Shown here in pieces: positions 5,234 to 43,890 of a DNA stretch of 64,000 bases. The stretch is from Elusimicrobia bacterium GWA2_62_23 (GTDB taxonomy: Bacteria; Elusimicrobiota; Elusimicrobia; Elusimicrobiales; UBA9959), in the NCBI GenBank assembly GCA_001799635.1, contig MGTV01000023.1, positions 1 to 64,000 of the forward strand. The letters are read 5' to 3'. A program made the position numbers and the translations under genes. The notes beneath the pieces are model-generated. The model did not search any database. It worked only from the letters and a program-made list of their open reading frames with translations, and was not told where the DNA came from. Position 1 is the first letter of the stretch; every line of letters begins with the position of its first letter.

Positions 5234-6181
5234 TCAGAAAGCCATGGACAAGCTGAACTTCCTGGTGGTGTCCAGCGAGCCGAACGGCGCGAAAGAATAA
5301 TCCATCCTGAACTGCCCGGCGTTGAAGCCGAGGCCGCCGCACAGGGAGCCGGGCGCGCCGCCGGAGCCGGCGGCGTAGCCGCCGCGCAGGGCCAGCGAGT
5401 TGCCCATGGCGTATTCCGTGCCCACCGAAAAAGAGGTGCGGCGGTCGTGCACCAGGCGCTCCACTTCGGCGGCCAGGTTCACCGAGGGCAGCACGGCCCA
5501 GGCCGCGCCGGCGTTAAGGGTCAGGGGCAGGTTCTCGCGGCGCTCGGCGTACTTCAGGCCGCGCCCGAGGTTGCGGGCGGCCAGGCCCAGCGTGACCGGC
5601 GCCGCTGCCAGCTTCTTCACGGCGCCCAGGTCGAAAGCCAGGGCCGAGGCCGTGTAGCCGGAGATGCTGCTGGAAATGTACTTCACCCCCGCGCCGAGGC
5701 TGAACCCGCCGAAACCGCGCGCCAGGGCCAGGCCCACCGACTTGTCGGAAGCGCCGAAACCGCCGGAGCGCTCGCCGCCGGCGCCGCGGCCTTCCAGGGT
5801 GCCGTGGTCCAGCCGGGTAAAGGACACCGCCGCCTTGTAGTCGCCGGCGGGGAAAGCGGCCGCGGCGAAATCGTAGCTGCCGCCCAGGGCCCAGGCGGAA
5901 TGCATCAGGGACACCTCGCGCCTGGCCAGGGCGAGGCCGCCGGGGTTGTAATAGATGGAGTTGGCGTCGTCGGAAAGAGCGGTGTAGGCGGAGCCCATGC
6001 CGGAAGCGCGGGCCCCGGCCCCGATGCTTAAGAATTCCGCCCCGCTCTCCAGCGCCCGCGCGAGCTGCGTGCTGGGGACCAGCAGGAAAGCGGCGAACAG
6101 GACGAAGGCATAGGGCCGCGACAGCCAGTAGATCAGGCTGTTGAGCAGGTCCTTCTTGACGCCGCCGTCCAGGCATTTCAT
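5234..6181 (-). CDS. PorV/PorQ-like outer-membrane barrel protein
   Basis: A 315-residue exported protein. After a hydrophobic leader (about residues 19-42) it has the characteristic N-terminus of PorV/PorQ-like proteins: GAEFLSIGAGARASGMGSAY, then ALSDDANSIYYNPGGLAL. Alternating beta-strands follow to a short aromatic C-terminus (LSMAF). PorV-type barrels are FadL-like and, in type IX secretion, escort cargo to the surface. It lies 3 bases downstream of the Kelch/FlgD-tail gene and is surely co-transcribed with it. The long pre-signal N-terminus is unusual and the true start could be internal. Confidence 0.82.
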   Translation of the reverse strand: MKCLDGGVKKDLLNSLIYWLSRPYAFVLFAAFLLVPSTQLARALESGAEFLSIGAGARASGMGSAYTALSDDANSIYYNPGGLALARREVSLMHSAWALGGSYDFAAAAFPAGDYKAAVSFTRLDHGTLEGRGAGGERSGGFGASDKSVGLALARGFGGFSLGAGVKYISSSISGYTASALAFDLGAVKKLAAAPVTLGLAARNLGRGLKYAERRENLPLTLNAGAAWAVLPSVNLAAEVERLVHDRRTSFSVGTEYAMGNSLALRGGYAAGSGGAPGSLCGGLGFNAGQFRMDYSFAPFGSLDTTRKFSLSMAF

Positions 6182-6184
6182 AGC

Positions 6185-8344
6185 TCACCTTACCACCGCG
6201 AACTTGCCGGTCTTCTTCACCTTCTGCGCGCCCGCCGAGATCTCGGCCAGGTAGTAATAGACCCCGCTGGGGAACTCGCCGCCTAGTGTCAGCTCATAAG
6301 CCCCGCCCGCGCCCGGCGCGCCGCTGAGCGAGCCCTCATGGGCCAGCCGGCCGGAGGCCGAGTACACCTTTACCTGCAGTTTCTCGCCGCCGGAAGCCGC
6401 CACGCGCAGCACCGGCCGCGCTCCGCCCACGGCCGGATTCGGAAAAACATAAGCCTCGCCAACGGTAAAAGCCGCAGCCGGCGGGGCCGCAGCGGGCGCG
6501 GCGCTGAGCACGGCCTGGTACACGGAGAAATGAGAGGTTTCGGCGCTCACGGTCCGGTCGGCCCTGGAGACGGTGGAAGGCAGCGGCTCCCAGTCGCCCG
6601 CCGCGGCGTTCCAGTAGGCCACCTGCAGGGCCTCTTCGTCAGTGCCGGCGGGCAGCGCCGCCGGGTCATAGGGCAGGGAAATGGTAACGGGCGCGTCGAA
6701 AGTCTCGCCGTGGGGCCCGAATTCGAAGGTTTCAGAGGCGGCCTTGAGGCCGCGGGCAGCCAGTTTGGACGAACGTTTCTCCTTCTCCGCCGTACCGACC
6801 GCGACCGCGTCCTCCGGTGCCGCCGTCAGCAGCAGCTCGGGGTTGCCCTTGAAAGCGCCTTTCGGGATGCGCACTTTTACGCCGCCGGGGCCGGTCCTTT
6901 CCCCCTCGCGCTTTTCGAGGCGCGCGGCGAAGACCTTGCGGCTGGAGAGGGCCCGGTTCATGCTTTCACCGGAGAATTCCCTGCCGTCGGAGAGCCTGCC
7001 GGTGATTTTCAGCGAGAACTCCCCCTCGCCAATGACGTCCGCCACCGCCTGGCGGCTGAACTTGAGCATCAGGTAGGTTACACCTTCCAACCCGTCCAGC
7101 CCTTCGGCGTCCCCTGTGTAGAGTTTGCCTGTCCATTTGGGGTCCGGCGCTATGGGCGTCACGGCCTGGCCGTTCACGGCGGCGATCCTGACGCTGTCGG
7201 GCAGCACCGCGGCGGCTTCCGCCTCGGGCAGCCCCAGCACGACGGTAACCCACTTGCCGTTGGAATCCTTGTTGATGGCGGACGGGGACAGTTTCACGAA
7301 AGCTTTCAGCTCGGACTTCGTGCGGGCGAAATAGATGTCCGTAACTGGGTCGTCGAGATAGGCGCGGCCTCCGCCTATGGAGTAGATGAACTCGCCCGAA
7401 GCCGCGGCGGCCGGCGCCACCAGGTTCTGGGGCAGGGCGTGCAGCGGCTGCCACGCGCCCAGGGTCCCGGAGGCGGTGAACGGCGCGAAGTAAACGGCAT
7501 TGGTCACGCCGCCGTCGAACCCGCCCATCAGGTAAACGCTCTTTTCGCCCACGGCCAGGCCGTAGAAGGCCAGGCCGGAAGGCAGCGGCGGCTGGAGGGT
7601 CCAGGCGCCCAGCGTGCCGTCGGGATTTATAGCGGCCGCGTAGACCGCGGAGGAAACGCCGGAGGGAGGGGCGCCGCCTGCGCCGTAGAGGGCGGGGGCG
7701 TTGAAGCCTCCCACCGCGAAGAGCCGGCCGCCGCGGGCGAAGGACCGGTGGCCGAACACCGGTTCCGGCATGGGCAGCTCCCCGCGCCAGGCGCCGAGCG
7801 ACCCGTCCGGGTTAACGGGCACTGAATACACCGAGGCGGTAGCGCCGCTGCCCCGCTCCACGCCGCCCGTCACGTAGAGCCTGTCGCCAAAGACGGCGGC
7901 CGAGTGGGCGGCCACCATGTTGGGCAGCGCGGTCACGGGCTGCCAGCCGGCGAGCGTGCCGTCGGTATTCACGCCGGAAACATAGACGCGGCTGCGCTGG
8001 CCGGCGTAGTTGGAGCCGCCCAGCACGTAGATCCTGTTGTTGTGGACCAGGGAGGCGTGCATGCCGAGGCCGAGGAATTCCGGCATGGGGCTGGCGGACT
8101 GCCAGGCGCCCAGGGTGCCGTCGGGGTTTACCGAGGCGCAGTAGTAAACGCTGTTGAGGAAACCCGTGCCGGAATAGTTGTCGCTCAGGCCGCCGGCCAC
8201 GTAGATGCGGCCGCCGAGGGTCACGGCCGAATGGGACATCAGGGTGCGGGGAAGGGGCCCGGCGGCCTCGAACTGCGCGAAAGCGCAGGCGGGCAGCAGC
8301 AACGCGGCCAGCAGCGTCTTCAGCAGCGGATCCCCGAACCTCAT
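6185..8344 (-). CDS. Secreted Kelch-propeller protein with FlgD/sorting-type C-terminal domain
   Basis: A 719-residue exported protein. The signal peptide is about 1-23. Residues about 30-345 contain roughly six Kelch-type repeats, each with IYVAGG-like strands and a recurrent NPDGTLGAW spacer, predicting a beta-propeller. Residues about 475-610 hold a beta-rich domain resembling ZU5-type modules (VKVRIPKGAFKG, APVTISLPYD). The last about 95 residues begin YVFPNPAVGG and end KFAVVR, resembling FlgD-Ig/T9SS type-A sorting domains. The ATG follows GGGAGG at good spacing. Expression is probably set by the c-di-GMP riboswitch upstream. The partner is the PorV-like gene immediately downstream. Confidence 0.8.
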   Translation of the reverse strand: MRFGDPLLKTLLAALLLPACAFAQFEAAGPLPRTLMSHSAVTLGGRIYVAGGLSDNYSGTGFLNSVYYCASVNPDGTLGAWQSASPMPEFLGLGMHASLVHNNRIYVLGGSNYAGQRSRVYVSGVNTDGTLAGWQPVTALPNMVAAHSAAVFGDRLYVTGGVERGSGATASVYSVPVNPDGSLGAWRGELPMPEPVFGHRSFARGGRLFAVGGFNAPALYGAGGAPPSGVSSAVYAAAINPDGTLGAWTLQPPLPSGLAFYGLAVGEKSVYLMGGFDGGVTNAVYFAPFTASGTLGAWQPLHALPQNLVAPAAAASGEFIYSIGGGRAYLDDPVTDIYFARTKSELKAFVKLSPSAINKDSNGKWVTVVLGLPEAEAAAVLPDSVRIAAVNGQAVTPIAPDPKWTGKLYTGDAEGLDGLEGVTYLMLKFSRQAVADVIGEGEFSLKITGRLSDGREFSGESMNRALSSRKVFAARLEKREGERTGPGGVKVRIPKGAFKGNPELLLTAAPEDAVAVGTAEKEKRSSKLAARGLKAASETFEFGPHGETFDAPVTISLPYDPAALPAGTDEEALQVAYWNAAAGDWEPLPSTVSRADRTVSAETSHFSVYQAVLSAAPAAAPPAAAFTVGEAYVFPNPAVGGARPVLRVAASGGEKLQVKVYSASGRLAHEGSLSGAPGAGGAYELTLGGEFPSGVYYYLAEISAGAQKVKKTGKFAVVR

Positions 8345-8363
8345 GATGCCTCCCTCTGGAAAT

Positions 8364-8412: not shown

Positions 8413-8439
8413 AGCCTGGCCGGCAAATGAACACGCGTA

Positions 8440-8535: not shown

Positions 8536-8541
8536 CCCAAT

Positions 8542-14381: not shown

Positions 14382-14387
14382 CCAATT

Positions 14388-23021: not shown

Positions 23022-23046
23022 AGGTATACCTCTTTCCATTCCAGCG

Positions 23047-29000: not shown

Positions 29001-32000
29001 ACATGCCGGAGGAGACGGGGGCGGTGGTATAGAACATGGTCTGGGCCGAAGTGTAGGCCCAGGGTCCGGCGGAGAGCAGCGAGGATTGGAAATAATAGGT
29101 GGACCCGGTAGGCAGGTCCAGCGGCGAGGTCCAGCTGATCTCGCCGGTGCCGGGATAGGCCCCGGGGGCGCCGTTGATCACAAAAGAAGGCGGCAGGAAG
29201 GTGTAGATACCCGGCCTGGAAGCGTTCACGGAGGCCCCGGCGAAGATACCCGAGCCGTCCAGCATGACATTGCGGGCCTGCTCGCTTTCGGACTTATTGT
29301 CGAAAGTCTTGGTCCATTCGCGCGAGAGGGTGGCGGGGTCCACTTTGGTCACACGGATGTTCTGGCCCTGCATGATGTCGTTGCGCATTTCGTAACCGGC
29401 GGTATAAACATAGCCGCCGTAATAAGCGGCGCCGTAGTTCACTTCCATGTTGCCGGCCACGTTATAGGTGGAAGCGGCCACATAGTCCAGCGCCCCCCCT
29501 TCGTGGTTAATGAATTTCCCCAGCCAGGCGTCTTCCGAACTGAACACGCTGATCCTGCCGGCGACATAAATGTCGGAATCCGGTCCCACGGCCAGGCCGT
29601 AGCCGGTCTCGGAAAGGTTCGGGACGTCGCTGCTCACCGTAACCTGGTATTCCATGGTGCCGGAGGTCAGCGGATAACGCGCCAGCCAGATATCGGCGTC
29701 ACTGGCGGTAACGCCTTTTTCTCCGGCCACAAAGACCGCGGAGGTGGTAACGGCAATGCCGTTAAAGCGGTTGCCCATGCTGCCGGCGACGGCGTCCGAA
29801 GTGGAAGACCAGAGTTCGAAACCCGTAGTGGAGAACTTCTTTATCATCGCGGCATTGCTGCTGTCAGGTGTGGACATCTGACCGGCGATATAGGCGTTGC
29901 CTGCGGCGTCTATGCCCACGGCATTGGCCATGTCAGAGCCCATGGATTCTCCGGCTATCTTCACGTTCCAGTCCAAGAGGCCGTTAGACAGCACCTTGGC
30001 CAGGAAGATATCCTGCATATTGGTAGGGTCCGAATTAATGGCGCCGGCCACGTACACGGCACCAAGGGCTGAAACCGCGAGCCCTTTTATGGTGAAAGAA
30101 GGCGCGGCGTTCACGGTAGGTTGGGGGTAATTGTAGAACCGGGTCCACTCGAAGCGGCCGGAAACCTTGTCGTACTTGCGCACCAGCCAGCCGCCTTCCA
30201 TGGAGCCGGCCATAGGCACGCCGTAGGCCTGGTAAATGTTGCCGCTGGGGTCCATGGCGGTGGCGAAGTCCATCGGGCTGCCTTCGGCATAGGTGAGGCG
30301 GGACTGCGGGTAGACGTTGACGATATCCGTCAGCGCCGGCGTGCGGGCTTTGGCGTAAACGGCGGGGCCCATGGGCGTGCCGTTAAGCCAGACCATGAAA
30401 TAATACGTGGGCGTGGTGAGATTGCCGTAGGCGTCACGGGAGGCGGGCAGGCCCCGCACCAGGAAGCCGTCGCCGGCGCCGGAGGCCACGGGGCCGGTAG
30501 TGAGCTGTATCTGCGCCGTGGCGTAATCCCAGGTGAAAGCGGGCGAGGTGCTGTACTGTACGCGCAGGGGCGTGTCGGCCGGCACGGCGGCGGGATAGGT
30601 CCAGGAAAGCTGCACGGTACCGGTGTATTCGCCGGCGTAGGAACCCAACTGGAAGGGGCTGCCGCCGGTCTGCGGGAAAGAGTAAAGGCCGTAGGAGTCT
30701 CCGAACTGGCCGGCCAGCAGCACGTCGCCGGTGGTGGAGAGCTTCACGTCGTAGAAGACGTCGTCGCTGGCTGAAACGTAGGTACGGGTGGAGATCAGCT
30801 GGCCGTCGGAGGTGTACTTGAAATAGAGGGCGTTGCGGCCCTGGCCCAGGTCCATGCGGGACTCGTAGCCGGCCACGTAAACGCCGCCCACTTTATCGGC
30901 GGCGCAGGAGTAGGCGGCTTCCTCCTTGCTGTAGGGCGCGTAAGGGTTGTCGTATGTCCTGGTCCAGATCGGGGACGAGAGAGCCAGGTCGAACTTGTGC
31001 ACCACCAGGTTGCGGCCCTGGCTGAGGTCGTTGCGCTCCTCGTAGCCGCACAGGTAGGCGAAGCCGGCGGGGTTAACGGCCAGGCCGTAGGCCGCGTCAT
31101 AACCGTTGCCCGGGCTGTTGTAGTCGAAGGCCTTTACGAAATCGCCGTTGGAGGCGTACTTCATGATGGACATGTCGGCGTAGCCGGCGGAATTGGAGGC
31201 CTGGCCGCCGAGGTAGAGGTAACCGGAAGCGTCCAGGGCCAGGTCGCTGACAAAGTCCTCGGTGTTGGTGGTGCGGGTGCTGTTAAAGAGGGTCTCCCAG
31301 GTGGCAGCGCCGGTCACCGGGGCCAGCTTGGCCAGCCACATGTCGGAAGAGGCGGAGGAATACTCCACGGCGTAGCCGCCGGCGTAGAGGGACGCGCCGT
31401 CGAAAACCAGCGCCTGGGCCCTGGAATGGCCGTAGAGGCCGGGGCGGGTCTTCAGCCAGAGCAGTTCGCCGGCGGTGGAATACTTGGCGATGAAAGCCTC
31501 GTCGTAATTGCCGTCGTAGAGGCTGCCGGCCACGTACACGTCGCCGCTGACGAAGTCCACGGCCAGGGACCGGCCCAGGTCCCAGCCGTACGGGGAGGCG
31601 CTGTTGAGCAGGCGCACCCACTGCAGGGCGCCGGCGGAATTGTATTTGCGCAGCACTACCTCGCTGCCGCCCATCTGCTGGTTGGTGGTGAAGCTGTTCA
31701 CCAGGTAGGTGTTATTGAAGCGGTCCACGGCCAGGCGGCCGCCGTAATAGTCGCGCAAGCCGCTCTCGAGCGCGAGCGTTCCGCCGCCGAAAGGCGTGGC
31801 GGACACCGACGGGAACAGCGGGGTGGAGGGCCGGGCCGACATTTCGGAGGAATCCGCGGAAACCACGGAAGCCACCTCCGCCCAGAGGCGGAAAGCGTAG
31901 TAAGGCGACTCCACGGCGTTGGCCCCGTTCACGCCGGCGTTCAGCCCGCCTATGACCAGGTTATGGATCTCGCCCGAAGCAGAGGTTGTGGCTATGACTA

Positions 32001-32331: not shown

Positions 32332-33555
32332 CTAAAATTCCCACTCCAGGCCCAGCAGGTAGGTGCTGGCCCGGTAGTTGTACCTGTAATTGGCCTCGTA
32401 GCGCATGTTGGAACTGGAGACCTGGTAGTTGTACGCCGCTTTAGCGAAGATCTTGTTATACACGGGGTACCGCACGGCCAGCGAACTCAGCCAGAAGGTC
32501 TGGTTGATCTTACCCTCGCCGTAAGCGCCGGCGGCGTCCTGCTTGAGGCGCCCGAGGTAATACAGGCGCCGCCAATCCAGCCCCACGCCGAACTGCGCCC
32601 CGTTCTTGAAGACGAAACTGGCCGACGGGCTCACGGACATGTCCACGTAGCTGTAGTAATCCTCTATGTACTTGGTGCGGGAGGAATCGTAGGAGCTCTG
32701 GTTGGAGCTCAGCCAGCCCACCCGCGCCCCCACGGCGAGGTAGACCGGCTTCATGGCCCGGGAAACCCGGAAGGTCCAGTTCTGCACCAGGTCGGAGCGC
32801 TTGTCGCTCTTGAAGTAGGGCTGGCCGGTGGCGGGCTTGGCCACCACGGCCTGGTCGCCGTAGCGGCGGTAGGTGAAGTCGTAGCCGGCCTTCATCACCG
32901 CCGGCTCCGGGAACCAGGTATAGGTGAAGCCCAGCCGGTGGTTGGTGTTGTCCATGGTGTCCACCCCGGCGTTGGAGGACAATTCGTTGAAGGTGGTGGT
33001 GTCTATGGCGGTGCCCCCCTCCGACAGCAGCGTGCTGTAGTTGGGGTACTTCACCTGGTAGAAGTCGTAGGATTCCGTAAAGGTGCCGTGCGGACGCTCC
33101 TGCTCGGCGTCCAGGCCGAAAGAGAGCGTGGCGTAGTCGAAAAGGCCGTCGCCCCATTTCTCGTCCTTGGTCTCCTTGATGAGGGCTTTCGAATAAGAGA
33201 TGCGCGGCTTGTATTTGTCGAACTCGCGGGTATAGACGTACTTCAGCGAGAAGGTATGCGTCTGGCGCTGGCGGGTGAGCACGCCGCCGCCGGCCAGTTC
33301 CTGGATGTCCTGCGTGCCGGAATAGTTGCCGGCATAGACGGGGATCAGGTCATGCCCTTCCGCTATGTTTATCACCGGCGAGGCGAAGGCGTCCAGCCGG
33401 CCCTGGAAGGAGGCCGCGTCGGAATCCAGGTAGTATTTGCCGCCGAGCAGCGAAACGTTGGCCACCGGGGTTATCTTCATGCCGGCTTCGAGGGCCGCGG
33501 GGCAGCAGGCCAGCAGGCCGAGCAGGCAGGACTTTATGAAGTTCTCTTTTTTCAT
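32332..33555 (-). CDS. Outer-membrane beta-barrel protein, unknown (module B)
   Basis: About 407 residues from ATG 33555 (MKKENF), nine bases after AAGGG; an ATG at 33561 is only three bases from it. A signal peptide (about 1-25) is followed by alternating hydrophobic/polar beta-strands rich in Tyr and ending in an aromatic strand (YLLGLEWEF). It is paralogous to the barrel at 36750-37973: both have an ELAGGG turn, a KETKDExWGxGLxD-type segment and a YRYNY end. Family unknown. Confidence 0.7.
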   Translation of the reverse strand: MKKENFIKSCLLGLLACCPAALEAGMKITPVANVSLLGGKYYLDSDAASFQGRLDAFASPVINIAEGHDLIPVYAGNYSGTQDIQELAGGGVLTRQRQTHTFSLKYVYTREFDKYKPRISYSKALIKETKDEKWGDGLFDYATLSFGLDAEQERPHGTFTESYDFYQVKYPNYSTLLSEGGTAIDTTTFNELSSNAGVDTMDNTNHRLGFTYTWFPEPAVMKAGYDFTYRRYGDQAVVAKPATGQPYFKSDKRSDLVQNWTFRVSRAMKPVYLAVGARVGWLSSNQSSYDSSRTKYIEDYYSYVDMSVSPSASFVFKNGAQFGVGLDWRRLYYLGRLKQDAAGAYGEGKINQTFWLSSLAVRYPVYNKIFAKAAYNYQVSSSNMRYEANYRYNYRASTYLLGLEWEF

Positions 33556-33567
33556 GGTCATGTTCCC

Positions 33568-35016
33568 TTAAAACCTCAGCAGGCCGGCGTCCTTGAGCAG
33601 TTTGGCGGAGAATTCCAGGTCTATCTTGCGGCCGCCGAACAGGGAGCTGGTGTACACCCGCTCGAAATTGAGCCGGTCGGTGGCGGTGTCCATGGTAACG
33701 CCCAGGCGCGAGGAGAAATCCCCGGCGCTCAGAATGTCGCCGCTGTCGAAGAGCACGTAATCCGAGGCCTCTATCCAGGTATTATCCGCGTCGGAATAGG
33801 TGTTGCGGGTGACGGTGTGGAACACGTCCTCGCCTCCGGGATAGGTCACCGAGCCAGCGGGGGCCGCGCCGCCCAGGTAGGTCATCTCGCCGGTCTGCAC
33901 GGTATTGTCCGCGTTGAGGTCCGTGTAGCCCCAGAGCTTGCGCCCCAGGCCGCCGTTCTCCAGCGCCTGGTCCGGCCCGGAGGCGTAAACCGCGTAATCG
34001 GTGAAGAAATGCGTCCACTCGGACGGGCTGCCGGCGTTGTCGGCCACCATCTTGCCGCCGGAGGCGTCCTCGGTGACGCGGTCCAGGGTATTGGACATCA
34101 CGCTGTTCATGGCCGTGAGCTGCCACTGCGGCGTGGCGGACCCCGTGGCGCTGGTCATGTTGCGGGTGGCCAGCGACAGGTCGGCGGGCAGCGCGCTGTT
34201 GAAGGTGAACAGGATCTTGCCGAAATCGAAACGCTCCTGCCGGGTATTGAGCACCACGTACTTGAACTGGTTGTCGGCCGGCCGGATCACGTATTCTTCC
34301 ATGCGCACCCGGTTGCCGAAGGCGTCTATGGCCACCTTGCGGCTCTGGAACTCGGCCGATTGCAGTTCTTCCTGGGCGCGGGAGATCACGTCTTCCTTGG
34401 AGATCTCGTTGTAGATCTCGTTACGGGCCGCCTGCGAAGGGCTGCCCACGGAGGAGTTCATGTCGCTCGGCTGGTTGGGGTTCTGCGAAGGTTCGCGCAA
34501 CCTTCCGCCGGCGGGGATCTCGGCGAATTGCCCCTCGCGGACCAGGCTGGCGTTGCCCTTGGCGTCGCCGGTGAGCACGGACCCGTCGTAAACCTCCACG
34601 CGGCTGTTCCCCTCCTGGTCCGAGGCCACCATGAAGTCGGTGCCGCGCACGGCGCAGACGGCCGACGGGGTGCGGACTTCGAATTTTTTGGAGAATTTCT
34701 TGACCCAGGAGCGGACCCGGCCGAAATAGAGCCCGAGCGAGACCGCGTCCTTGCCTTCCGAGGTCATCCTGAACGAGGACACCGGGGCGATCTTCACGCG
34801 GGAGCCGTCCTCCATGAGGAGCTCGGCGGTAGAGGCGCGGGCGGTACGGAGCTCGTCGCCGTTGCCCAGGCGCAATTTCTCGTCCCCTTCCAGGCGGGTC
34901 CAGGTTTCCGACCCGGCTTTTTTATGGTCCACCTCGCCGCGCCACGAGTCGAGATAGGCGGCGTAAGCCGGTGTAAAGGCAAAAAAGAGCAGCGCTGAAA
35001 CAAGCAGTTGTTTCAT
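33568..35016 (-). CDS. FecR-domain secreted protein (module B)
   Basis: 482 residues with a signal peptide (about 1-19). A FecR-type beta domain covers about 25-165: LRLGNGDELRTARASTAELL, EDGSRVKIAP, and FEVRTPSAVCAVRGTDF. It is followed by a coiled linker and a C-terminal region (about 210-482) shared with the other FecR protein, including IDAFGNRVRMEEYVIRPAD. Here FecR is not next to a sigma factor or TonB receptor, so a structural or sensing role at the surface is more likely than classical iron signalling. AAGGAG precedes the ATG; a terminator lies upstream. Confidence 0.75.
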   Translation of the reverse strand: MKQLLVSALLFFAFTPAYAAYLDSWRGEVDHKKAGSETWTRLEGDEKLRLGNGDELRTARASTAELLMEDGSRVKIAPVSSFRMTSEGKDAVSLGLYFGRVRSWVKKFSKKFEVRTPSAVCAVRGTDFMVASDQEGNSRVEVYDGSVLTGDAKGNASLVREGQFAEIPAGGRLREPSQNPNQPSDMNSSVGSPSQAARNEIYNEISKEDVISRAQEELQSAEFQSRKVAIDAFGNRVRMEEYVIRPADNQFKYVVLNTRQERFDFGKILFTFNSALPADLSLATRNMTSATGSATPQWQLTAMNSVMSNTLDRVTEDASGGKMVADNAGSPSEWTHFFTDYAVYASGPDQALENGGLGRKLWGYTDLNADNTVQTGEMTYLGGAAPAGSVTYPGGEDVFHTVTRNTYSDADNTWIEASDYVLFDSGDILSAGDFSSRLGVTMDTATDRLNFERVYTSSLFGGRKIDLEFSAKLLKDAGLLRF

Positions 35017-35076
35017 AATAGGAACTCCTTGGTCTCTATCCTTCCCGAACCCCCGAAAATCAGGCCCAATAAGGGC

Positions 35077-35118
35077 GAAAAAAACTACCCCCTCATCATA
35101 ATATAATGAGGGGGTAGT
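35077..35118 (-). terminator. Internal terminator between the two FecR genes
   Basis: On the minus strand ACTACCCCCTCAT and ATGAGGGGGTAGT form a 13-bp perfect stem, then seven T. It separates module A (1654-aa protein, PorV, barrel, FecR) from module B, so B has its own promoter or is reached by read-through. The rest of the 125-base gap shows no clear promoter. Confidence 0.9.
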
Positions 35119-35141
35119 GTCAACGCAACAAAGGTTACGTT

Positions 35142-36746
35142 CTACTGCAGGCTCAGGCTGTCCGCGGTAGTGGTGGCGGCCTTCTTCTGGCTGAGGATCT
35201 CCGGGGCGAACAGCACGTCTATATTGCGCCCCTGGAACAGCGAGGAGTCTATGACCATTTCCAGGTTGAAGCTGCCTTCCGCCAGGAAAGTATTGGAGTT
35301 GGGCGAACCGGGGATGCCGAGGACTTCGCCTTCATTGGAGACGAGTATCTTCCTGGAAAGCACGGTAGAGCCGTCCGCGTAGGTGGTGCCCACGCTGTAA
35401 TCGGCCTTACCGGGCCCGCTGGGATAGGTGACCACCGGGTCGCTCGGGTTCACGGTGGCGTCTATGGCGCCGCCGTAGATGCCGGCCTTGTCCACCAGGG
35501 CGGCGGTCCAGCCGTCGGACACGTCTATGGTGCTGGTCGGGTCCAGGGTTATCTGTTCCAGCGTGGTCAGGGTGCCAACGTTGTTTACCACCTTCTGCGT
35601 CCAGGTGAACTGGCCGGCCGTGGTGGAATTGTAGTCCTGTATCTGCTGGAACTGGGTGCGCTCGCCTCCGGGCACGCCGGGGCCGGAGAGTATCTGCTTG
35701 TAGTCTATGGACCCGGGATAGTACCTGGTGGCGGCCACGCCGCCGTTGTAGCCGGCGAAGTCGATGGCCACCGGGGCGGTGAAGTCTATGGTCTCCTTGA
35801 TGCTGTCCACGGTGTTGGTCAGGTAAACCTCGAAGTACTTCATCCAGTTGGCCGGGGCGGTGGCGGACATGTACATGCCGTCTATGATGCCCCCCACCTG
35901 GCTGATATCGTCGGGGATGGCGGAGTTGAAACGCTCTATCAGGTGGCCCCAGTCCAGGCGGTCGGCCTCGGCGCGGCGGCTGAGGAACAGGATCTTGAAT
36001 TCGTCGTCGGCGGGGCGCAGCAGGTATTCTTCCAGGCGCACGCGGCGGCCGAAGGCGTCTATGGAATCCTTGCCGAGCTGGGACTCGTTGGCCTTAAGCT
36101 CGCGGTTGCGCAGCTCTTCGAGCATGGTGCGGGTACGCTCGCGGGCGGTTTCCCTCATCACGGCCATGGGGCGGGCGGCCTGCCCGGCCTTCTCGTCCTT
36201 CAGGGAGACGTTCTCCGGCCTGGACATGCCGTCCATGCCTATATTTATGCGCTCTTCCGAGGAGACCACGGCCAGTTTGCCCTGGTTGTCGTTCACTTCC
36301 ACCAGGCCTTCGGCCACGTCCATGCGGGTGGCGCCGTCCTTGCCCACCTCCAGTTCGAACTCGGTGCCGCGCACGGCGCAGACCGCGGCGGGCGTGCGCA
36401 CTTCGAAGCGGCTGGCGAAATAACCGGCCACGCTGGCCTTCAGCTTGCCGAAGGCGAGCTTGAAGCCGGCCTTCTTCTTTGTGGTGTCCTCCACCGCGAA
36501 CTGGCTGTCGCCGGCGAGCTGGAACCGGGAGCCGTCGGGCAGCACCACGCCGGCCTTGCCGTCCTTGGCGGTGCGGATCTCGGCGCCGGGCCTCACGCGC
36601 ACCGGCTCGGTCACGTTCACCCAGCCTGATTTAGCTGAAGCCCTGGCTTCCACCTTGCCTTCGGGCATGAGGATCATTTCCCGCGGGGCGGCCAGGCAGG
36701 GGCCGGCGGCCAGCAGGAGTACGGCTATAGTTTTAAAGGCGTTCAT
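35142..36746 (-). CDS. FecR-domain secreted protein (module A)
   Basis: 534 residues with a signal peptide (about 1-19, ending CLA-A). The FecR-like domain spans about 30-185: RPGAEIRTAKDGKAGVVLPD, and FEVRTPAAVCAVRGTEFELE is nearly identical in form to module B. The downstream IDAFGRRVRLEEYLLRPAD segment also matches the module-B paralogue, showing duplication followed by divergence of the C-terminal half. GGAGG precedes the ATG at nine bases. Function unknown. Confidence 0.75.
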   Translation of the reverse strand: MNAFKTIAVLLLAAGPCLAAPREMILMPEGKVEARASAKSGWVNVTEPVRVRPGAEIRTAKDGKAGVVLPDGSRFQLAGDSQFAVEDTTKKKAGFKLAFGKLKASVAGYFASRFEVRTPAAVCAVRGTEFELEVGKDGATRMDVAEGLVEVNDNQGKLAVVSSEERINIGMDGMSRPENVSLKDEKAGQAARPMAVMRETARERTRTMLEELRNRELKANESQLGKDSIDAFGRRVRLEEYLLRPADDEFKILFLSRRAEADRLDWGHLIERFNSAIPDDISQVGGIIDGMYMSATAPANWMKYFEVYLTNTVDSIKETIDFTAPVAIDFAGYNGGVAATRYYPGSIDYKQILSGPGVPGGERTQFQQIQDYNSTTAGQFTWTQKVVNNVGTLTTLEQITLDPTSTIDVSDGWTAALVDKAGIYGGAIDATVNPSDPVVTYPSGPGKADYSVGTTYADGSTVLSRKILVSNEGEVLGIPGSPNSNTFLAEGSFNLEMVIDSSLFQGRNIDVLFAPEILSQKKAATTTADSLSLQ

Positions 36747-36749
36747 AGT

Positions 36750-37973
36750 TTAGAACCTCCACTCCATGCCGGCGAAATAGGAAGAACTGTCGTAGTTGTA
36801 GCGGTAAACCTGCTCGTAGCGGTTATTGGACCGCGAAGCCGCCCAGGTGCCCTGCACTTTGGCGTCCAGCGAGCGCGCCACCGGGTAGGCCAGCTCGGCG
36901 GTGAAGCTGCTGGAATACTGCGCCAGGGTCTTGGAGGTGTACGACCCGTCGCCTTTCTGGGCCAGGCGCTCCGAATAGGAACGCACCGCGAACTCGTAGG
37001 AGAGCCGCGTGATCAGGCCGGTAGCGATGGAGATGAACTGCGCGCCGGGCGCCAGCCGCACCTCGGTATAGTCGTAGTAGCCCTTGATGTACTTGAGATG
37101 GGCCGGGTCCGTATCCATGTGGTTCTGGTTGGAGATCAGGTTGGCCAGGCCCAGGCCCGCGCTGAACACCGGGCGGATGCCGCCCAGCCACTGCAGGTCG
37201 TTGTAGCGCTTGGAGAGGCCCAGGTTCGCGGACTGGTAATAGTCCGACCGCTTGGAGCTCAGGTAGCGGCCCTCGGAGTTGATGACCTTCTGGTCCTGGT
37301 AGTCTATCAGGGACAGGGAGAACAGGAAGTCAGCCTTCTTGAAATTGGGCAGGTCCATCTCGGCGGCGTAGCTGACCTGGTTGGTCAGGGTGTCCAGAAC
37401 CCGGCTGCCGGGGTTGGGCGCGGCCATTTCGGCCCCGTACTGGCTGGCCAGCGATTTAAAGCGCGTGTAGCGGGTGTAGTAGGCGTCCCAGGAGAGCTGC
37501 CAGGTCCACGGCGTGGACAGGCCCAGGCGGGTCTTGCGCTCCAGCGTCACGCCGGCCTCGTAGCGGGTGAAGTCGTAAAGGCCTTCCCCCCAGTTCTCGT
37601 CCTTGGTCTCGCGGAAAAGCTGGTTCTTAACGCCCACCCGGGGCTTGAAAGAGTAGCCGCCTTCGTAGCGGCGTATCAGTTTGAAGCCGAGCGAGTTATC
37701 CAGGCTCTGCTGGAACAGGGTACCGCCGCCGGCCAGTTCGTTCACCTGCTTGAAGCCGGTATAGACGGACCGGGCGCTGGCGAAGAAGCCGGAGCTGGGC
37801 GAATAGCTCCTGGCCAGTTGGGCGTCCAGCACGCCGTAGCCGTTGAAGGCCCCGGACTGTCCGCCGAAGAAGTACTGGCCCCCGAAGAGGTCCAGCTTCC
37901 CCATGAGTTTGTAATTCCCGGCCGCGGCAGGAGCCGCGGTCATCAAAAGAACCGCTGCGATCAGTTTTTTCAA
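36750..37973 (-). CDS. Outer-membrane beta-barrel protein, unknown (module A), TTG start
   Basis: 407 residues. The start is TTG at 37973, nine bases after GGGGAGA, opening a signal peptide (about 1-19, ending AAAG). No ATG gives a better signal sequence. Tyr- and Ser-rich beta-strands alternate to the end YFAGMEWRF. It is a paralogue of the barrel at 32332 (ELAGGG, FRETKDENWGEGLYD and YRYNYDSS end). Only 3 bases separate it from the FecR gene. Confidence 0.7.
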   Translation of the reverse strand: MKKLIAAVLLMTAAPAAAGNYKLMGKLDLFGGQYFFGGQSGAFNGYGVLDAQLARSYSPSSGFFASARSVYTGFKQVNELAGGGTLFQQSLDNSLGFKLIRRYEGGYSFKPRVGVKNQLFRETKDENWGEGLYDFTRYEAGVTLERKTRLGLSTPWTWQLSWDAYYTRYTRFKSLASQYGAEMAAPNPGSRVLDTLTNQVSYAAEMDLPNFKKADFLFSLSLIDYQDQKVINSEGRYLSSKRSDYYQSANLGLSKRYNDLQWLGGIRPVFSAGLGLANLISNQNHMDTDPAHLKYIKGYYDYTEVRLAPGAQFISIATGLITRLSYEFAVRSYSERLAQKGDGSYTSKTLAQYSSSFTAELAYPVARSLDAKVQGTWAASRSNNRYEQVYRYNYDSSSYFAGMEWRF

Positions 37974-37994: not shown

Positions 37995-38900
37995 TTAGAA
38001 AACAAAGCCCAGCGTCATGCGGTGCGTGTCGCCCAGGTCCCCGAAGGGCACGTAGGCGTAGTCGAAAGCGAAGCTGTCGAACTTAAGGCCCAGGCCCGCG
38101 CCGAACCCGGTCAGCCCGCCCAGTTCGTCCCGGCTGCGGCCTACCTGGTAGCCCGCGCGGAAAGAGAGCAGCTTGTTGGCGTGGTACTCGGCGCCCAGGT
38201 CCAGGTACAGTCGCTCGTCGTTGGCCAGCCAGTCCAGGTCGGCCGCCGCGGTCAGTTTCTTGTCGAAGAAGCCGGTGGACGCGCCGCCCTTGAAAGTGAG
38301 CGGCAGTTTGTCGGGACCTATCTTGCCGCCCAGGTTCTGCACCGTGAAGGCCGCCGTCCAGCTGCCGTTGAAGGAGTAGGACGAGCCCAGGTCTATGGCC
38401 AGCGCCTTGTCGTTCTGGGTGTCGAGCTTCTGCTGTATGTATTTCAGGTTGCCGCCCACGGCCAGCCCGGGTATAACGTCGGGCCGCGCGTAGGACAGGG
38501 TGACGGCCGTATTGTTATTGCTGAACTTGGAGATAGGGTTGTCCGTGTCGCCGGTGCGCTTCTCTATGTCGGACACCGTCAGGTAGTTCACGCCGGCGCC
38601 GAACACGCCCATGTCGTCGCCGAGCGGGGCCGCGTAGCCCACAAAGCCCTGCGACTCGTCCACGAACAGCATGTTGTAGCTGGCGCTGAGGTCGCGCCGC
38701 TTCAGCCCGGCCAGCCTGGCCGGGTTCCAGTTCACGGCGCCCGCCCCTTCGGTAAGCGAGCTGGCGGCGGAACCGAGGGCCAGTTCCCTGGCCCCCACGC
38801 CCACCTTAAGGAAGCTCGCGCCGGTGGTGCCAACGCCGGCGGCCTGCGCCGCCCCCGCGCCCAGCATTAAAGCCGCTGAAAGCCATATTTTATAGTTCAT
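37995..38900 (-). CDS. PorV/PorQ-like outer-membrane barrel protein (module A)
   Basis: 301 residues with a signal peptide (about 1-20). The mature N-terminus GTTGASFLKVGVGARELALG, then LTEGAGAVNWNPARLAGL, is the PorV/PorQ pattern, followed by barrel strands and the family-like end VPFGDLGDTHRMTLGFVF. That end is closely similar to module B (LPFGDLGSIHRFGFWLQF) and the Kelch-linked PorV. GAGGAG precedes the ATG. It is the gene next downstream of the 1654-residue secreted protein (25 bases between them). Confidence 0.85.
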   Translation of the reverse strand: MNYKIWLSAALMLGAGAAQAAGVGTTGASFLKVGVGARELALGSAASSLTEGAGAVNWNPARLAGLKRRDLSASYNMLFVDESQGFVGYAAPLGDDMGVFGAGVNYLTVSDIEKRTGDTDNPISKFSNNNTAVTLSYARPDVIPGLAVGGNLKYIQQKLDTQNDKALAIDLGSSYSFNGSWTAAFTVQNLGGKIGPDKLPLTFKGGASTGFFDKKLTAAADLDWLANDERLYLDLGAEYHANKLLSFRAGYQVGRSRDELGGLTGFGAGLGLKFDSFAFDYAYVPFGDLGDTHRMTLGFVF

Positions 38901-38925: not shown

Positions 38926-41900
38926 TTACTTTATGACCGCCATCTTGAACGTAGCGTCCTCGCGGCTGGGCTTCTTGCCGGAGAGCTCCACCACGCCGTA
39001 ATAGACGCCGTTGGCCACTTCCTGGCCGGCCTTGTTATGGCCGTTCCATTCGAAGTAGTTGTACTTGCCGCCCACGCAGGTGCTGCTCAGGTCGTTGACC
39101 AGTTCGCCGGCCAGCGTGTAGATGCGGATGTGGCAGGGGCCGCCGTTGGCCGCCGGCACTTCCACGTGGATGAACGTGCCGTTGGTGGTCAGCGAGGCCA
39201 GATTGCCCGCGTCGTGGTTATGAGCGGTCACGGTCTTGGCCTTGAGGCTGAAGGGGTTCGGGTAGTTGAACACCTTCACCTTGCTGCCGCCGTAGGCGTC
39301 GCCGGCCACGGAAGGCCGGATCACGGCGAAGGTGCCGGAGGTGGAGCTGCCGCCCGCGGCCTGCGGGCGCACCACGTACTGGCGCCCGTCGAAGGCGTTC
39401 ACCTGCACGGAGCCGGGCTTGGCCAGGATGGAGGCCAGGCTCTTGAGCTTCACCTTCACGGTGCCCTTCACGGGGTTGATGGTCGCCACGCCGGTCACTT
39501 CCTCCCACTTGGAGGTGGTGTCGTTATAGCGGGCCACCGAGAGGTCCGTAAGGTCCGCGGTGGTCTTGTCGTAGGCCAGCGTGAGCTCTATGGACTTGTC
39601 CTCGTTGGGGGTAACGCTGGTGAGCGCCACCGTATAGAGGTTGCCGGCGAAAGCGTCCGCGCCGAGCGCGTTCACCTTGTCGGCCACGGAAGCGTCGCTC
39701 TTGTCCTCGCCCTTGAAAGAGCAGGTAGGCACCGCCCCGGTGGACACCGGCAGCACGGCCCCGGGCGGGAACATGATGGCCGAAGCGTCGTCGCCGCTGT
39801 TGTCTATACCGGCCTCGTTGCCGCGGCGGCCCTTTTCGTCCTCGGTATCGTCGCCGATTATCAGGTCGTCTATCTGCTGCTCGGCGTTGCCCTTATAACT
39901 CTTGCCGAACAGGAGTTCGCGCGTCACGGTGCGGCCGGAGTAGGATACGGCCTCCCCGTGCAGCACGTAGGTGACGCCGTTGGTAAGGCTGGCCAGCGGC
40001 ACCTTGCCTATCATCTCGCCGCTGGAGATCTGCTCCAGGTTCACGGTGATAGCGCTGCCGGCGTTATAAGGCGAAGCGCTGTAGGTCATGACCCCGGTCT
40101 TGAAGTCCGACGGGTTCAGCACGGTGAACTCATAATACTCGTCGCCTTTCTTGGCGAACATCTCGATGTCCAGCGGCTTGGGCTTCATGATGAAGTCTAT
40201 GCCGGTTAGGAGGCCGTAATGCGGCACGGTGCTCTGGTTAAGCGTGTACTTGCCGGGCACTTTAAGGAAGACCTTGTACACGTCCCCGGGGATAAGCCCG
40301 GTCAGCCGGTAGGTACCATCCGAGCCGGTGCGCGTCTTTATGAGCGGCAGCGGCGCCGTGGGGTGCGTGCCGTTGTAGGTGTCGTTGTAGGCGTAGATGA
40401 GCGCGCCGGGCTGCACCTTGGCGAAAGGCATCTTCTGCGAATACACCGTGCCGGAGACGGAGCCGCCGGCCGCGGTGAGCGTAAAGTTACGCGTGTAGCT
40501 GTTGCTGCCTACCAGTTCCTCTTCCGCGTCGTCCAGGGCGTAGCCCTCGGCCGAGACCTTCAGGCGCACCTCGCCGGGCGGCAGACCTTCGAACTTATAG
40601 GCGCCGGTGGAGTCGGTTACCACGGAGCGCGGGTCTATGCCCTCGCCTACCAGCGACACGGCCACGTTGGACAGCCGCACCGCGGTATTGGTGGTGGTCA
40701 CCACGCCCTGCAGGGTGGCGCCCACGCCCACGAGGGCGTCCAGGTCTATGGACATGGTGGTGGTAGAGCCGTTAACGCCAACGCAGGTGCGCGTCTGGTA
40801 CGGCGGGTAATTGGGCGTGGTCACCACTGCCGTGTAGCAGGTGGAAGGAGCCAGCGCCCTGATCTGGTAGGCGAAATACGGGGCCTCGTTGAGCATGGTG
40901 ATGAACTGGGAATAGCCCAGCTGGAAGTTGGCGGTAAACGACCCGGTCTGCTCCCGCTCAGCTATGAAGTCCATAGACGGCACCACTATGCCGGCCGCCT
41001 TGAAAGCGCCGTTGGCGTCGTAGAGCGTGACCAGAGGCAGATAGTTCATGAACCCCTCAAAGTCGCCGCCGAGGGCGTCGTAGTCGGCCTGCCTGAAGAA
41101 GTTATTGGCCGACACAAGCCCCTTCAGCGTGGCATTGCCGCGCGCGGCCATGCTGACAGTCGGGTTCATGTTGACTATCATACCGCTCGAAGGCCACATG
41201 GAATAGGCCGGGCGCACCAGCGCGTTGGCGCGGCTGTCTTCTATGATGACGTTCTTGCTGGACGTGATCAGCGAGAAATGCGGGTACGGGGCATCGGGAA
41301 TGGGGCCCGCAGACATGTCGCCGAAGTCGCCGGAGCGCATGAGGTACAGATCGTACACCGCAGGGGACGGCAGGGCCAGGGCGCAGAAGCCGGGCGGCTG
41401 GCCGCCTCCGCAAGGACCGCTTTCATCTCCGGGCACTGTGCCGGTGGAGTAGCGGAATTTCAGACCGTCATCCTTGCCGGAAAGCATGGTTATTATGGTC
41501 TCGCCCTTAAGGACGGTGCCTGCCGGCACCGGGATCACCCGGAAACCGAGCACGGTGTCATGATTAGGGGACACGATAACGCTGGTGTCCGGCATCAGGG
41601 CCGGGTTCATGCCTATGCCCACATAGGTGGCGTCCACCAGGTTCACGCTCACGGTAGAGGTACTGCCGGCCGTGACGTTAACGGTAGGGGCGGGAGAAGG
41701 CAGGGCGTAATCGAAAGAAGCCTCGCCGCTGCCGTTCACCCGGATCCGGTTTATGCCGGGCAGCACGCTGGTAAGGGTAAAGGTGCCGTCCTTCTGCACC
41801 TGGGTGCCGGACCAGCCGTTATCGCTGTTCATGTCTATCCAGATGTACTGGTGCTCGGCCGGGATGAACACCGTGCCGTCGGGCTTATAGAGCGTGCCGG

Positions 41901-43890
41901 TAACTATGCCGGCCGGCTCGAAGTCCATATCCACCACCACGGTGCCGGTGGAGCCCAGGTGCACCTGGTCATTGCCGCCGCCGCGGCGCACGCGGCCCCA
42001 GCCGTAGGCGCTGGTGTACATGTAGTAGGAGAAACCGCTGGATACGTTGATCTGGTAGTCGTAGTGGTCGGCGCCGGAGCCGCTCAAGGAAGTGAAGTTG
42101 CCGCTGCCGCAGCTCAGGCCGTCCTGGCATGAGGGATAGAGCGCTATGGTGATGGGATGGGCGCTCAGGTCGGTCACGCCGGGGAACCGCAGGGTGCCGC
42201 GCACCAGGCCGCTGGTATTGCCGCCGGTGGTGACCACGTAGGTGATGGAGGACAGGTTAACCGCCCCGTCGGTGACCAGCGCGCCGCTGCTGTCGTACAC
42301 GTGCAGCATCTGGTTGTCGCCTTCGGCCGTATTGGTCTCCACGAGCACGCGGTAATCGTCCACGCCGGTACCGCCGTAGGCGCAATGCGTCTGCAGCCAG
42401 CAGCCCTGTTCGTGGCAGTCCTGGTACACGCCCCAGGCGGGAGACTCGCGGTCGGGCCCGGAGTTAAAGGGCACCGACTGGCCGCCGGAGAACTGCGTCC
42501 AGACATTGACCACATAGTTGCCGCTGGGAATACCGGTAAGCGTAACGCAGCCGTCGGCGCCGGTCTGCAGGTTCTTTATGGCATAGCCCGGGCGCTGCTG
42601 GAAATCGGGATAATTGGTCCCGGCGCAGGCGTTGGGAGCGTCGCTCCAGGGAGAGCCGTCCGGATTGATATTGACCTGGGAGTTGGGAATAGGCGCGCCG
42701 GAGGCGGACCTGGCGCAGACCTTGAAAGTGCCGGTGCTGGCGGCCATCTCATTGAGCTGGACCTTGACGGTGTCGTAATAACCTGGGGAAGCCACGCCCT
42801 GGAAAATAGGCAGCGCGGAACTGACATACACGAAGTCGTTCTCGCCGCGGGGCGCGAGGCCGCTGCACAAGTCCTGTACCCCGGTCAGCGCGGGACTGGT
42901 ATAAGGTTCATAGCAGGTACCGCCGCCGCCCTGCCGCCAGGAGCAGCCGCCCATGGACTCGGCGTAATAGGTGGCGCCGAGCACCAGGTCGGTCAGTTGA
43001 AAACGGCCGTTCTCGTCCACATTGGCCCACTTGTAGTCGCTGCAGGAGCGGAAATTGACACCGATGTAGCCGATGGCGGACCACAGGGTGGTGCCGGTAC
43101 TGCGCACTATGCCCTGCACCGCGCTGGTGGAAACCGCGGCCGAACCGGAAGTATTGTTCTCCACGCGCGAAGGCGGGATGGAATTGGCGAAGTCCGCCTT
43201 GGCGGCCCCGGTGTAGGAAAGGGTATAGGCGCCGAGCTCCAGCGGCAGGCTGTCGCCGAGTTCGGTCATGACGTTGCGGCCGGTACCCCTGTTCAGGTAG
43301 GGATCGTAGGTGCCTATATTATAGGTATTGGGGTCCGCGAAGGGCACATTGTCCACCACGAGGAAACCGACCCCGCTGCCGTCGGTCTGCACTATGCCCG
43401 TGCCGCCCTGCTGCTGGGCCAGCATATTGTAAACGCCTCCGAACAGCACGGTGTTGGGAGTGGCGTTGGCTATCTCGAGGCGGATGCGGGCCACTCCGGT
43501 CAGGCCGGAGGTCACGGTGAAAGTGGAATAGCGGGTGGTGCCGTCGGCCCAGATATAGCGGTTGGGGTCGTATTCCGGGTTATTGAACTGGTCATAGATG
43601 CTGGGAGAATAGCCGTGGGAGGAGAACAGGATGTTATAGCTCCGGTCGTTCTCCAGCGTGAACTGGTATTTGCCTTTAGTGGCGTCCGGCGCGTTGGAGG
43701 TAACGCCCACCTGCGTGTGCGTGGAGGGGCCGTTCATGCCGAATTCCACCGCGGCCACCAGCACGTCCCCTACGGGGTTGCCGTCCCCGTCCTGTACGTA
43801 GACGTTGAGCGTGGTGCCTACCGCCGAAGCGGTAGAAGCCGCCGCCAGGGCGAGCAGCCCCGCAAGGATCATTTTAGTGAACAGGCGCAT
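38926..43890 (-). CDS. Giant secreted protein with carboxypeptidase-regulatory repeats and FlgD-type tail (module A)
   Basis: 1654 residues with a signal peptide (about 1-23). Most of the protein is a string of CarboxypepD_reg/SD-repeat-like beta domains (VYVQDGDGNPVGDVLVAAVE at the start; VVTDSTGAYKFEGLPPGEVR and SDGTYRLTGLIPGDVYKVFL later). The final about 300 residues match module B: an ELTLAYDK domain, a Ser/Thr-rich linker, YPNPFSLKAKTV, and an end KMAVIK after W-N-G-H-N-x-x-G-x-x-x-x-N-G-V-Y-Y. A GGAGG site precedes the ATG. It heads the eight-gene cluster. Confidence 0.82.
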   Translation of the reverse strand: MRLFTKMILAGLLALAAASTASAVGTTLNVYVQDGDGNPVGDVLVAAVEFGMNGPSTHTQVGVTSNAPDATKGKYQFTLENDRSYNILFSSHGYSPSIYDQFNNPEYDPNRYIWADGTTRYSTFTVTSGLTGVARIRLEIANATPNTVLFGGVYNMLAQQQGGTGIVQTDGSGVGFLVVDNVPFADPNTYNIGTYDPYLNRGTGRNVMTELGDSLPLELGAYTLSYTGAAKADFANSIPPSRVENNTSGSAAVSTSAVQGIVRSTGTTLWSAIGYIGVNFRSCSDYKWANVDENGRFQLTDLVLGATYYAESMGGCSWRQGGGGTCYEPYTSPALTGVQDLCSGLAPRGENDFVYVSSALPIFQGVASPGYYDTVKVQLNEMAASTGTFKVCARSASGAPIPNSQVNINPDGSPWSDAPNACAGTNYPDFQQRPGYAIKNLQTGADGCVTLTGIPSGNYVVNVWTQFSGGQSVPFNSGPDRESPAWGVYQDCHEQGCWLQTHCAYGGTGVDDYRVLVETNTAEGDNQMLHVYDSSGALVTDGAVNLSSITYVVTTGGNTSGLVRGTLRFPGVTDLSAHPITIALYPSCQDGLSCGSGNFTSLSGSGADHYDYQINVSSGFSYYMYTSAYGWGRVRRGGGNDQVHLGSTGTVVVDMDFEPAGIVTGTLYKPDGTVFIPAEHQYIWIDMNSDNGWSGTQVQKDGTFTLTSVLPGINRIRVNGSGEASFDYALPSPAPTVNVTAGSTSTVSVNLVDATYVGIGMNPALMPDTSVIVSPNHDTVLGFRVIPVPAGTVLKGETIITMLSGKDDGLKFRYSTGTVPGDESGPCGGGQPPGFCALALPSPAVYDLYLMRSGDFGDMSAGPIPDAPYPHFSLITSSKNVIIEDSRANALVRPAYSMWPSSGMIVNMNPTVSMAARGNATLKGLVSANNFFRQADYDALGGDFEGFMNYLPLVTLYDANGAFKAAGIVVPSMDFIAEREQTGSFTANFQLGYSQFITMLNEAPYFAYQIRALAPSTCYTAVVTTPNYPPYQTRTCVGVNGSTTTMSIDLDALVGVGATLQGVVTTTNTAVRLSNVAVSLVGEGIDPRSVVTDSTGAYKFEGLPPGEVRLKVSAEGYALDDAEEELVGSNSYTRNFTLTAAGGSVSGTVYSQKMPFAKVQPGALIYAYNDTYNGTHPTAPLPLIKTRTGSDGTYRLTGLIPGDVYKVFLKVPGKYTLNQSTVPHYGLLTGIDFIMKPKPLDIEMFAKKGDEYYEFTVLNPSDFKTGVMTYSASPYNAGSAITVNLEQISSGEMIGKVPLASLTNGVTYVLHGEAVSYSGRTVTRELLFGKSYKGNAEQQIDDLIIGDDTEDEKGRRGNEAGIDNSGDDASAIMFPPGAVLPVSTGAVPTCSFKGEDKSDASVADKVNALGADAFAGNLYTVALTSVTPNEDKSIELTLAYDKTTADLTDLSVARYNDTTSKWEEVTGVATINPVKGTVKVKLKSLASILAKPGSVQVNAFDGRQYVVRPQAAGGSSTSGTFAVIRPSVAGDAYGGSKVKVFNYPNPFSLKAKTVTAHNHDAGNLASLTTNGTFIHVEVPAANGGPCHIRIYTLAGELVNDLSSTCVGGKYNYFEWNGHNKAGQEVANGVYYGVVELSGKKPSREDATFKMAVIK

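Follow-up and report, generated by a model that had tools for sequence, protein, structure and literature searches.

Cargo and barrel genes of the window

The first 64,000 nucleotides of contig C23 of Elusimicrobia bacterium GWA2_62_23 (positions 1-64000, hereafter the window) carry three gene pairs in which a large protein, here called the cargo, with a C-terminal domain (CTD) resembling those of type IX secretion system (T9SS) substrates is directly followed by a predicted barrel protein of the PorV/PorQ family. The source genome (G000), a draft of 2,982,915 bases in 51 contigs that is 91.8% complete, belongs to the Elusimicrobiota, a little-studied phylum outside the Fibrobacterota-Chlorobiota-Bacteroidota (FCB) group. 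The pairs had been pointed out in an initial annotation of this DNA, and all six open reading frames (ORFs) are indeed present on the minus strand, with the C-terminal tails that it gave.

Cargo 1 (6185..8344, minus strand; 719 amino acids) contains Kelch repeats and ends in KFAVVR, its CTD being encoded at 6185..6454 including the stop codon (minus strand; E 2.4e-19, for a sequence that was also a row of the search alignment), and barrel 1 (5234..6181, minus strand) has 315 amino acids. Cargo 2 (23047..32247, minus strand; 3066 amino acids) contains CarboxypepD_reg repeats and ends in KMAIIK, with the CTD at 23047..23313 including the stop codon (minus strand), and is followed by barrel 2 (22092..23039, minus strand; 315 amino acids). 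Cargo 3 (38926..43890, minus strand; 1654 amino acids), likewise with CarboxypepD_reg repeats, ends in KMAVIK, its CTD lying at 38926..39189 including the stop codon (minus strand; E 2.9e-23, again for a row of the search alignment), and precedes barrel 3 (37995..38900, minus strand; 301 amino acids). The cargo gene thus comes first in all three pairs, and the barrel gene starts 3, 7 and 25 nucleotides after the cargo stop codon in pairs 1, 2 and 3, respectively. Judged by eye, the N termini of the three cargos are signal-peptide-like stretches.

Family membership and fold of the barrels

The PorV/PorQ family model NF033709 scored barrels 1-3 at 151.6, 169.0 and 163.7 bits with a curated cut-off of 90, which upholds the earlier description of all three as PorV/PorQ-like. 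Scores with the equivalog models (NF033710 and NF033711 were tested) were 62-66 bits for PorV, below the cut-off of 250, and 91-125 bits for PorQ, higher than with PorV and below the cut-off of 220; all three window barrels also stayed below the PorV2 equivalog cut-off, and none matched PF11751 (PorP/SprF) at E up to 1.

Barrel 2, the sole barrel modelled, was predicted by AlphaFold2 to adopt a FadL-type barrel fold of 14 strands, with a mean predicted local distance difference test (pLDDT) score of 79.3. The best PDB matches of this model were 8gl6 chain F (E 4.6e-15) and 6h3i chain F (E 4.2e-11), both from T9SS translocon entries and the latter being PorV of the SprA complex, with FadL trailing at E 8e-10. 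A sequence profile built from 12 barrels of the source genome matched PorV in the PDB at E 9.7e-33, and the next protein followed at 2.3e-6.

The C-terminal domain of the cargos

The cargos differ in their bodies (Kelch, fn3, PQQ-like, beta-helix and CarboxypepD_reg), and the CTD is shared. The initial annotation had described it as a FlgD/sorting-type domain with a PNPF motif, which fits cargos 2 and 3: they match FlgD_ig at 24.7 and 21.6 bits, both under the Pfam cut-off of 27, and have PNPF about 110-115 residues from the C-terminal end. It does not fit cargo 1, which has FPNPA instead and no FlgD_ig match, only weak matches to type A models. The T9SS type A model TIGR04183 matched 23 of 24 CTDs at E up to 1, cargo 1 reaching 21.9 bits with a cut-off of 23; the PorZ model matched 22 of the 24, and the type B model four. 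In a search of the PDB, the CTD profile matched PorU (E 2.1e-11), PorZ (2.6e-10), FlgD (3.1e-7) and the CTDs of SprA complexes (1.4e-5), and the AlphaFold2 model of the cargo 2 CTD (pLDDT 83) has an Ig-like fold. Among 103 pairs (from the matches listed for the 13 genomes described below), residue -6 of the matched CTD was Lys in 91 and Arg in another 8, and this position would correspond to the conserved Lys described in passages of PMC10994853.

Pairing of CTD and barrel genes

A pair was defined as a PorV-like gene directly downstream of a CTD gene, on the same strand and within 1 kb. In the source genome, PorV-like matches at E up to 10 numbered 32, and merging five further pieces of shared frames left 27 loci, the weakest lead piece having E 0.001. 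CTD loci numbered 25 with the threshold set at E below 1e-15, which excluded five weaker matches with E from 9e-5 to 0.6. This CTD census is partly circular, as the search alignment already contained 24 of these 25 CTDs and a single one was new. A downstream barrel gene follows 18 of the 25 CTD genes, whereas random placement gave a mean of 0.11 pairs and a maximum of 3 in 20,000 trials, so that random pairing of the two families, which the initial annotation had named as refuting its reading, is contradicted. Twenty barrel genes of this genome lie above the NF033709 cut-off, 15 of them paired, and seven lie below it, three of them paired; some of the latter seven are probably FadL-like.

The comparison was extended to 13 genomes with the best 150 of 220 barrel matches and the best 150 of 195 CTD matches, plus the 25 CTDs and eight weak barrels of the source genome. 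All genomes are drafts, and the named ones are all metagenome-assembled. Among the matches listed, 175 CTDs and 158 barrels formed 103 pairs. For the 72 unpaired CTDs, 49 had no listed barrel on their contig, 19 had one at a distance of at least 1 kb and four had one upstream within 1 kb; an opposite-strand barrel within 1 kb was found for none of the 72 among the listed matches.

The pairing also reaches beyond these genomes. In a phylum-wide draw, the barrel family was present in 76 of 79 genomes, with five or more matches in 40, and 26 genomes of 1.3-1.7 Mb from a sister family had 1-3 barrel-family matches each. In 30 loci of this draw, each from a different genome and with flanks of up to 1.5 kb, a CTD C terminus lay upstream on the same strand in 18, and none of the 30 loci had a CTD in any other place. 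A scan with barrel 2 and its relatives gave 27 loci, 26 at 69-90% identity and one at 27%: the cargo-2-type CTD gene is kept upstream in all 26 close relatives (25 by script, L316 by eye) and does not lie upstream in the 27% identical L318. L316 has an extra ORF between the CTD gene and the barrel gene, which by eye looks like a 23S rRNA-intervening four-helix protein.

In the window, pairs 3 and 2 and the four genes between them (32332..37973, minus strand; two with FecR domains and two without a Pfam match) make up eight consecutive genes on one strand, separated by 3-125 nucleotides, which are probably one operon. In G065, a genome of the same genus, one contig carries two barrel genes, putative orthologues, in the same orientation and with almost the window spacing (15.9 kb).

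Some CTD frames are very long. An 11,806-amino-acid open frame on contig C50 of the source genome (L074) terminates in a CTD some 0.5 kb upstream of a barrel-TPR gene, and paired-CTD frames of 11,748 and 11,055 amino acids occur in G001 and G003. On contig C28 of G069 (L349; PorV match at 53631-54455), cargo, CTD, a hydrophobic stretch and the PorV barrel stand in one frame of 7398 amino acids. Since this frame lacks the usual tail and stop of the CTD and a single genome is concerned, this ORF, a natural fusion or an assembly error, serves as a lead only.

Co-inheritance of CTD and barrel

For the 103 listed pairs, the CTD and barrel identity matrices correlated with a Mantel r of 0.80 (best of 999 shuffles 0.06), and for the 18 pairs of the source genome with 0.85 (best of 9999 shuffles 0.65). 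Thinning to under 70, 50 and 40% identity, which left 49, 25 and 16 pairs, gave r of 0.64, 0.30 and 0.34 (p 0.0005, 0.002 and 0.0125). FastTree trees of the CTDs and barrels of the 103 pairs had 48 of 100 splits in common, compared with a mean of 0.15 and a maximum of 3 in 200 shuffles. At support of at least 0.9, 30 CTD and 49 barrel splits remained, of which 20 were common and 7 of 1470 combinations conflicted. The common clades comprised up to 12, 14 and 24 pairs; the members from the source genome have tails AVVR or GVVR in the clade of 12 and AVER in that of 24. Some pairs of the source genome are only about 30% identical to each other. Nearest neighbours agreed less well: among the 103 listed pairs, the partner with the closest CTD was also the one with the closest barrel in 44 cases, and its barrel ranked among the five closest in 91. 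The paired trees proposed as a check of co-divergence therefore show, at the sequence level, that CTD-barrel pairs are inherited as units.

A pair on contig C39 of the source genome (L073), whose 1158-amino-acid cargo has an FTP propeptide motif, groups with the single listed pairs of three small-genome members of the sister family; as its clade holds those sister-family pairs, this pair may be the most ancient one in the order.

Export machinery

The initial annotation noted no SprA, GldK-N or PorU genes. For SprA this is right within the window, and does not extend to the genome: a SprA homologue lies on contig C29 (TIGR04189, E 1.1e-43). The genome search recommended there thus found a sprA homologue, whereas it did not yield GldL across the 13 genomes or GldM and the PorU catalytic domain in the source genome. 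SprA homologues occur in 13 of 13 genomes, none above the curated cut-off; 12 genomes have the matches in a single frame, and in G004 they are split over two contigs. A profile of 11 of them (the broken G004 sequence and G008 being left out) had significant PDB matches only to SprA (6h3i and 6h3j, E 9.5e-19). A divergent SprA homologue is therefore encoded, putatively equivalent to SprA, and a complete lack of export machinery, considered earlier as an argument against the proposal, is not what the genome holds.

GldM gave no match in the source genome at E up to 10. GldL gave chance-level matches in seven of 13 genomes, the best at E 0.01 and none above the cut-off, and nine of 14 control genomes matched too. 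Both searches could miss divergent motors. The PorU catalytic domain (NF033707) was not found in the source genome; all 14 matches to this model lay at positions 949-1094 of 1095, and PorU as the sortase of this genome was rejected, because these matches cover only the CTD part of PorU.

Comparison with known type IX secretion systems

In Flavobacterium johnsoniae, the general carrier PorV is common to type A cargos (PMC12635249), and type B cargos each have a dedicated carrier and stay bound to it (PMC12618676, PMC9143113). In Porphyromonas gingivalis, PorZ and PorU remain attached through their CTDs to PorQ and PorV, respectively (PMC10202324). PorE tethers PorP to peptidoglycan (PMC9143113).

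The Elusimicrobiota pairs are arranged like the Bacteroidota pairs of a type B CTD and PorP/SprF (SprB-SprF, PG1035-PorP), in which a cargo gene with a C-terminal signal is followed by a FadL-family barrel gene and a genome has several paralogous pairs and some orphan cargos, as described in passages of PMC12618676 and PMC9143113. According to the same passages the carrier doubles as the anchor in type B pairs, a role that the barrels here would have by inference. Unlike in type B pairs, most CTDs here match the type A model at E up to 1, and the window barrels belong to the PorV/PorQ family. The barrels resemble PorV in their nearest solved fold and sequence profile, and the CTD type is similar; unlike the single general carrier PorV described in passages of PMC12635249, they number 20 genes above the family cut-off in the source genome, 15 of them paired. 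PorZ-PorQ and PorU-PorV, which combine a type A CTD with a PorV/PorQ-type barrel, resemble the pairs here, and passages of PMC10202324 describe that CTD as kept bound; the P. gingivalis proteins, however, are parts of one attachment complex, whereas the family here is expanded and comprises many cargo types. With the T9SS of Bacteroidota the Elusimicrobiota share the SprA channel, PorV-type carriers and Ig-like CTDs, and they differ in that GldL (13 genomes) and GldM and the PorU catalytic domain (source genome) were not found.

Extra domains occurred among the 10 barrels of the source genome that were scanned (of 27, mostly the longest): TPR in three, and LysM, CsgG-like and caspase-like domains in one each. 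The LysM or TPR fusions are reminiscent of PorP-PorE in passages of PMC9143113. The barrel on contig C38 (L082) matches PF11751 at 38.7 bits with a cut-off of 22.3, carries a C-terminal TPR and follows a 140-amino-acid frame with little beyond a signal peptide and a CTD; this pair is a link to the known type B pairs. A barrel on contig C16 (L079) carries a C-terminal LysM, and the cargos on C16 and C38 have type-B-looking CTDs. On contig C37 (L076:2543-5857, minus strand), a PorV-family barrel is fused to a C-terminal caspase-like Peptidase_C14 domain, and a CTD frame of 979 amino acids on that strand follows it after about 0.8 kb, so that the order is reversed. This fusion was considered as a substitute protease and dropped, no link to CTD cleavage having been found.

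Proposed export route and alternative explanations

It is reasonably probable that each pair encodes a cargo and its dedicated outer-membrane carrier in a divergent T9SS-related export route. Adjacency, fixed order, the homology of barrel, CTD and channel, and inheritance as a unit are established at the level of sequence. The cargo would reach the periplasm by Sec, its C-terminal Ig-like domain would engage the SprA channel, and the neighbouring PorV/PorQ-family barrel would dock at SprA, take the CTD on its extracellular loops and then leave with the cargo. As no PorU catalytic domain was found in the source genome, the CTD is probably kept, and the barrel would remain at the surface as its anchor, each cargo molecule having a barrel of its own. 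The docking at SprA, the capture of the CTD and the lasting anchoring are inferred from F. johnsoniae and P. gingivalis. Given type-A-like CTDs, PorV/PorQ-type barrels and no sortase found, dedicated carriers that also anchor would fit best. The original suggestion that each cargo has its own cognate shuttle, or that the barrels form the surface anchor, is in this form the best reading, with precedents in type B CTD/SprF and PorZ/PorQ (in passages of PMC12618676, PMC9143113 and PMC10202324), but the pair-2 orthologues show no CTD-barrel co-adaptation clearly beyond shared descent. One-to-one specificity likely holds only between distant pairs, and recently duplicated pairs should cross-talk.

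Several observations weigh against dedicated carriers, the first being unpaired genes: the claim that each cargo has its barrel applies to most CTD genes of the source genome, but 7 of 25 CTD genes and 9 of 27 PorV-like genes stand alone, and therefore some CTDs use a barrel encoded elsewhere or none. This would suit barrels that are interchangeable PorV-type shuttles in a shared pool, with co-transcription only keeping carrier and cargo in step, an explanation that seems rather unlikely. One PorV serving all type A CTDs is the arrangement given for Bacteroidota in passages of PMC12635249, and in the pair-2 orthologues no CTD-barrel co-adaptation clearly exceeds shared descent. A shared pool, however, needs no such number of divergent barrels; the deep CTD and barrel clades stay matched over paralogous pairs; and in F. 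johnsoniae, according to passages of PMC12618676, close dedicated carriers can substitute for one another and divergent ones do not.

A fold search with the cargo 2 CTD also counts against export by a T9SS-like route, placing FlgD (4.4e-4) over PorZ (7.1e-3) and PorU (9.3e-3), all weak matches. Together with PorV itself being in the FadL fold class and FadL proteins coming next in the fold and profile searches, this first rank of FlgD would favour barrels that are FadL-like ligand channels with a surface-exposed binding partner for nutrient uptake of the SusCD kind, the CTD being a FlgD-like Ig module rather than an export signal for the barrel. Such uptake pairs are improbable, considering that PorV stands well ahead of FadL in both searches, that every one of the 13 genomes has a SprA homologue and that a common CTD is joined to diverse cargo bodies.

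The co-inheritance is likewise less telling than the trees alone suggest. Among distant pairs the correlation weakens, to r 0.22 (p 0.13) for the 10 pairs left under 35% identity, and at 22 pair-2 loci, with mean identities of 0.77 for the CTD, 0.75 for the barrel and 0.67 for the adjoining body, r was 0.43 between CTD and barrel and 0.63 between body and barrel, the partial CTD-barrel correlation given the body being 0.22. As the body-barrel correlation exceeds that of CTD and barrel, inheritance as a unit is no proof of recognition; the claim of CTD-barrel co-adaptation beyond shared descent was dropped on these values. Co-inheritance may result from linkage alone, which, with a body-barrel correlation at least as high, would agree with one ancestral neighbour pair duplicated many times without joint function. 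Such hitch-hiking is very improbable, since the pairing is kept across the phylum, in 18 of 30 loci, with a fixed order and cargo bodies within one CTD/barrel clade are only partly alike.

An export route with dedicated carriers must also reckon with its machinery. The SprA homologue of the source genome scores 148.9 bits, below the curated cut-off of 200. Pfam gave nothing for it at E 0.01, and a PDB search with this one sequence gave nothing at E 1. With neither GldL nor GldM found, no motor is identified.

Significance

In passages of published papers, the T9SS is described as confined to Bacteroidota or FCB, with one general PorV for type A cargos, and the introduction of PMC11285876, in the passage available, states that T9SS genes are absent outside FCB phyla. 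An open-access literature search found no work combining PorV, type IX secretion and Elusimicrobi, and the open-access passages checked on Elusimicrobi and type IX secretion describe no such system for Elusimicrobiota. The dedicated one-to-one arrangement proposed here is used by the best-known relatives for only one cargo class.

With SprA and 18 pairs in one genome, a phylum outside FCB provides a ready-made collection of matched signals and carriers, and the basis of CTD-carrier specificity is therefore testable by cross-pairing. The pairs also bear on the question of how proteins could be exported when the known motor and sortase are lacking. It is tentatively proposed, as a possibility, that the Elusimicrobiota have a stripped-down type IX relative without GldLM and PorU, in which SprA would load the cargo onto a single-use barrel from the same mRNA that becomes its lasting anchor, sometimes fused to LysM or TPR, and in which dedicated type A barrels would be ancestral. 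If this is true, the Bacteroidota arrangement of one general PorV together with a sortase would be a specialisation of that phylum.

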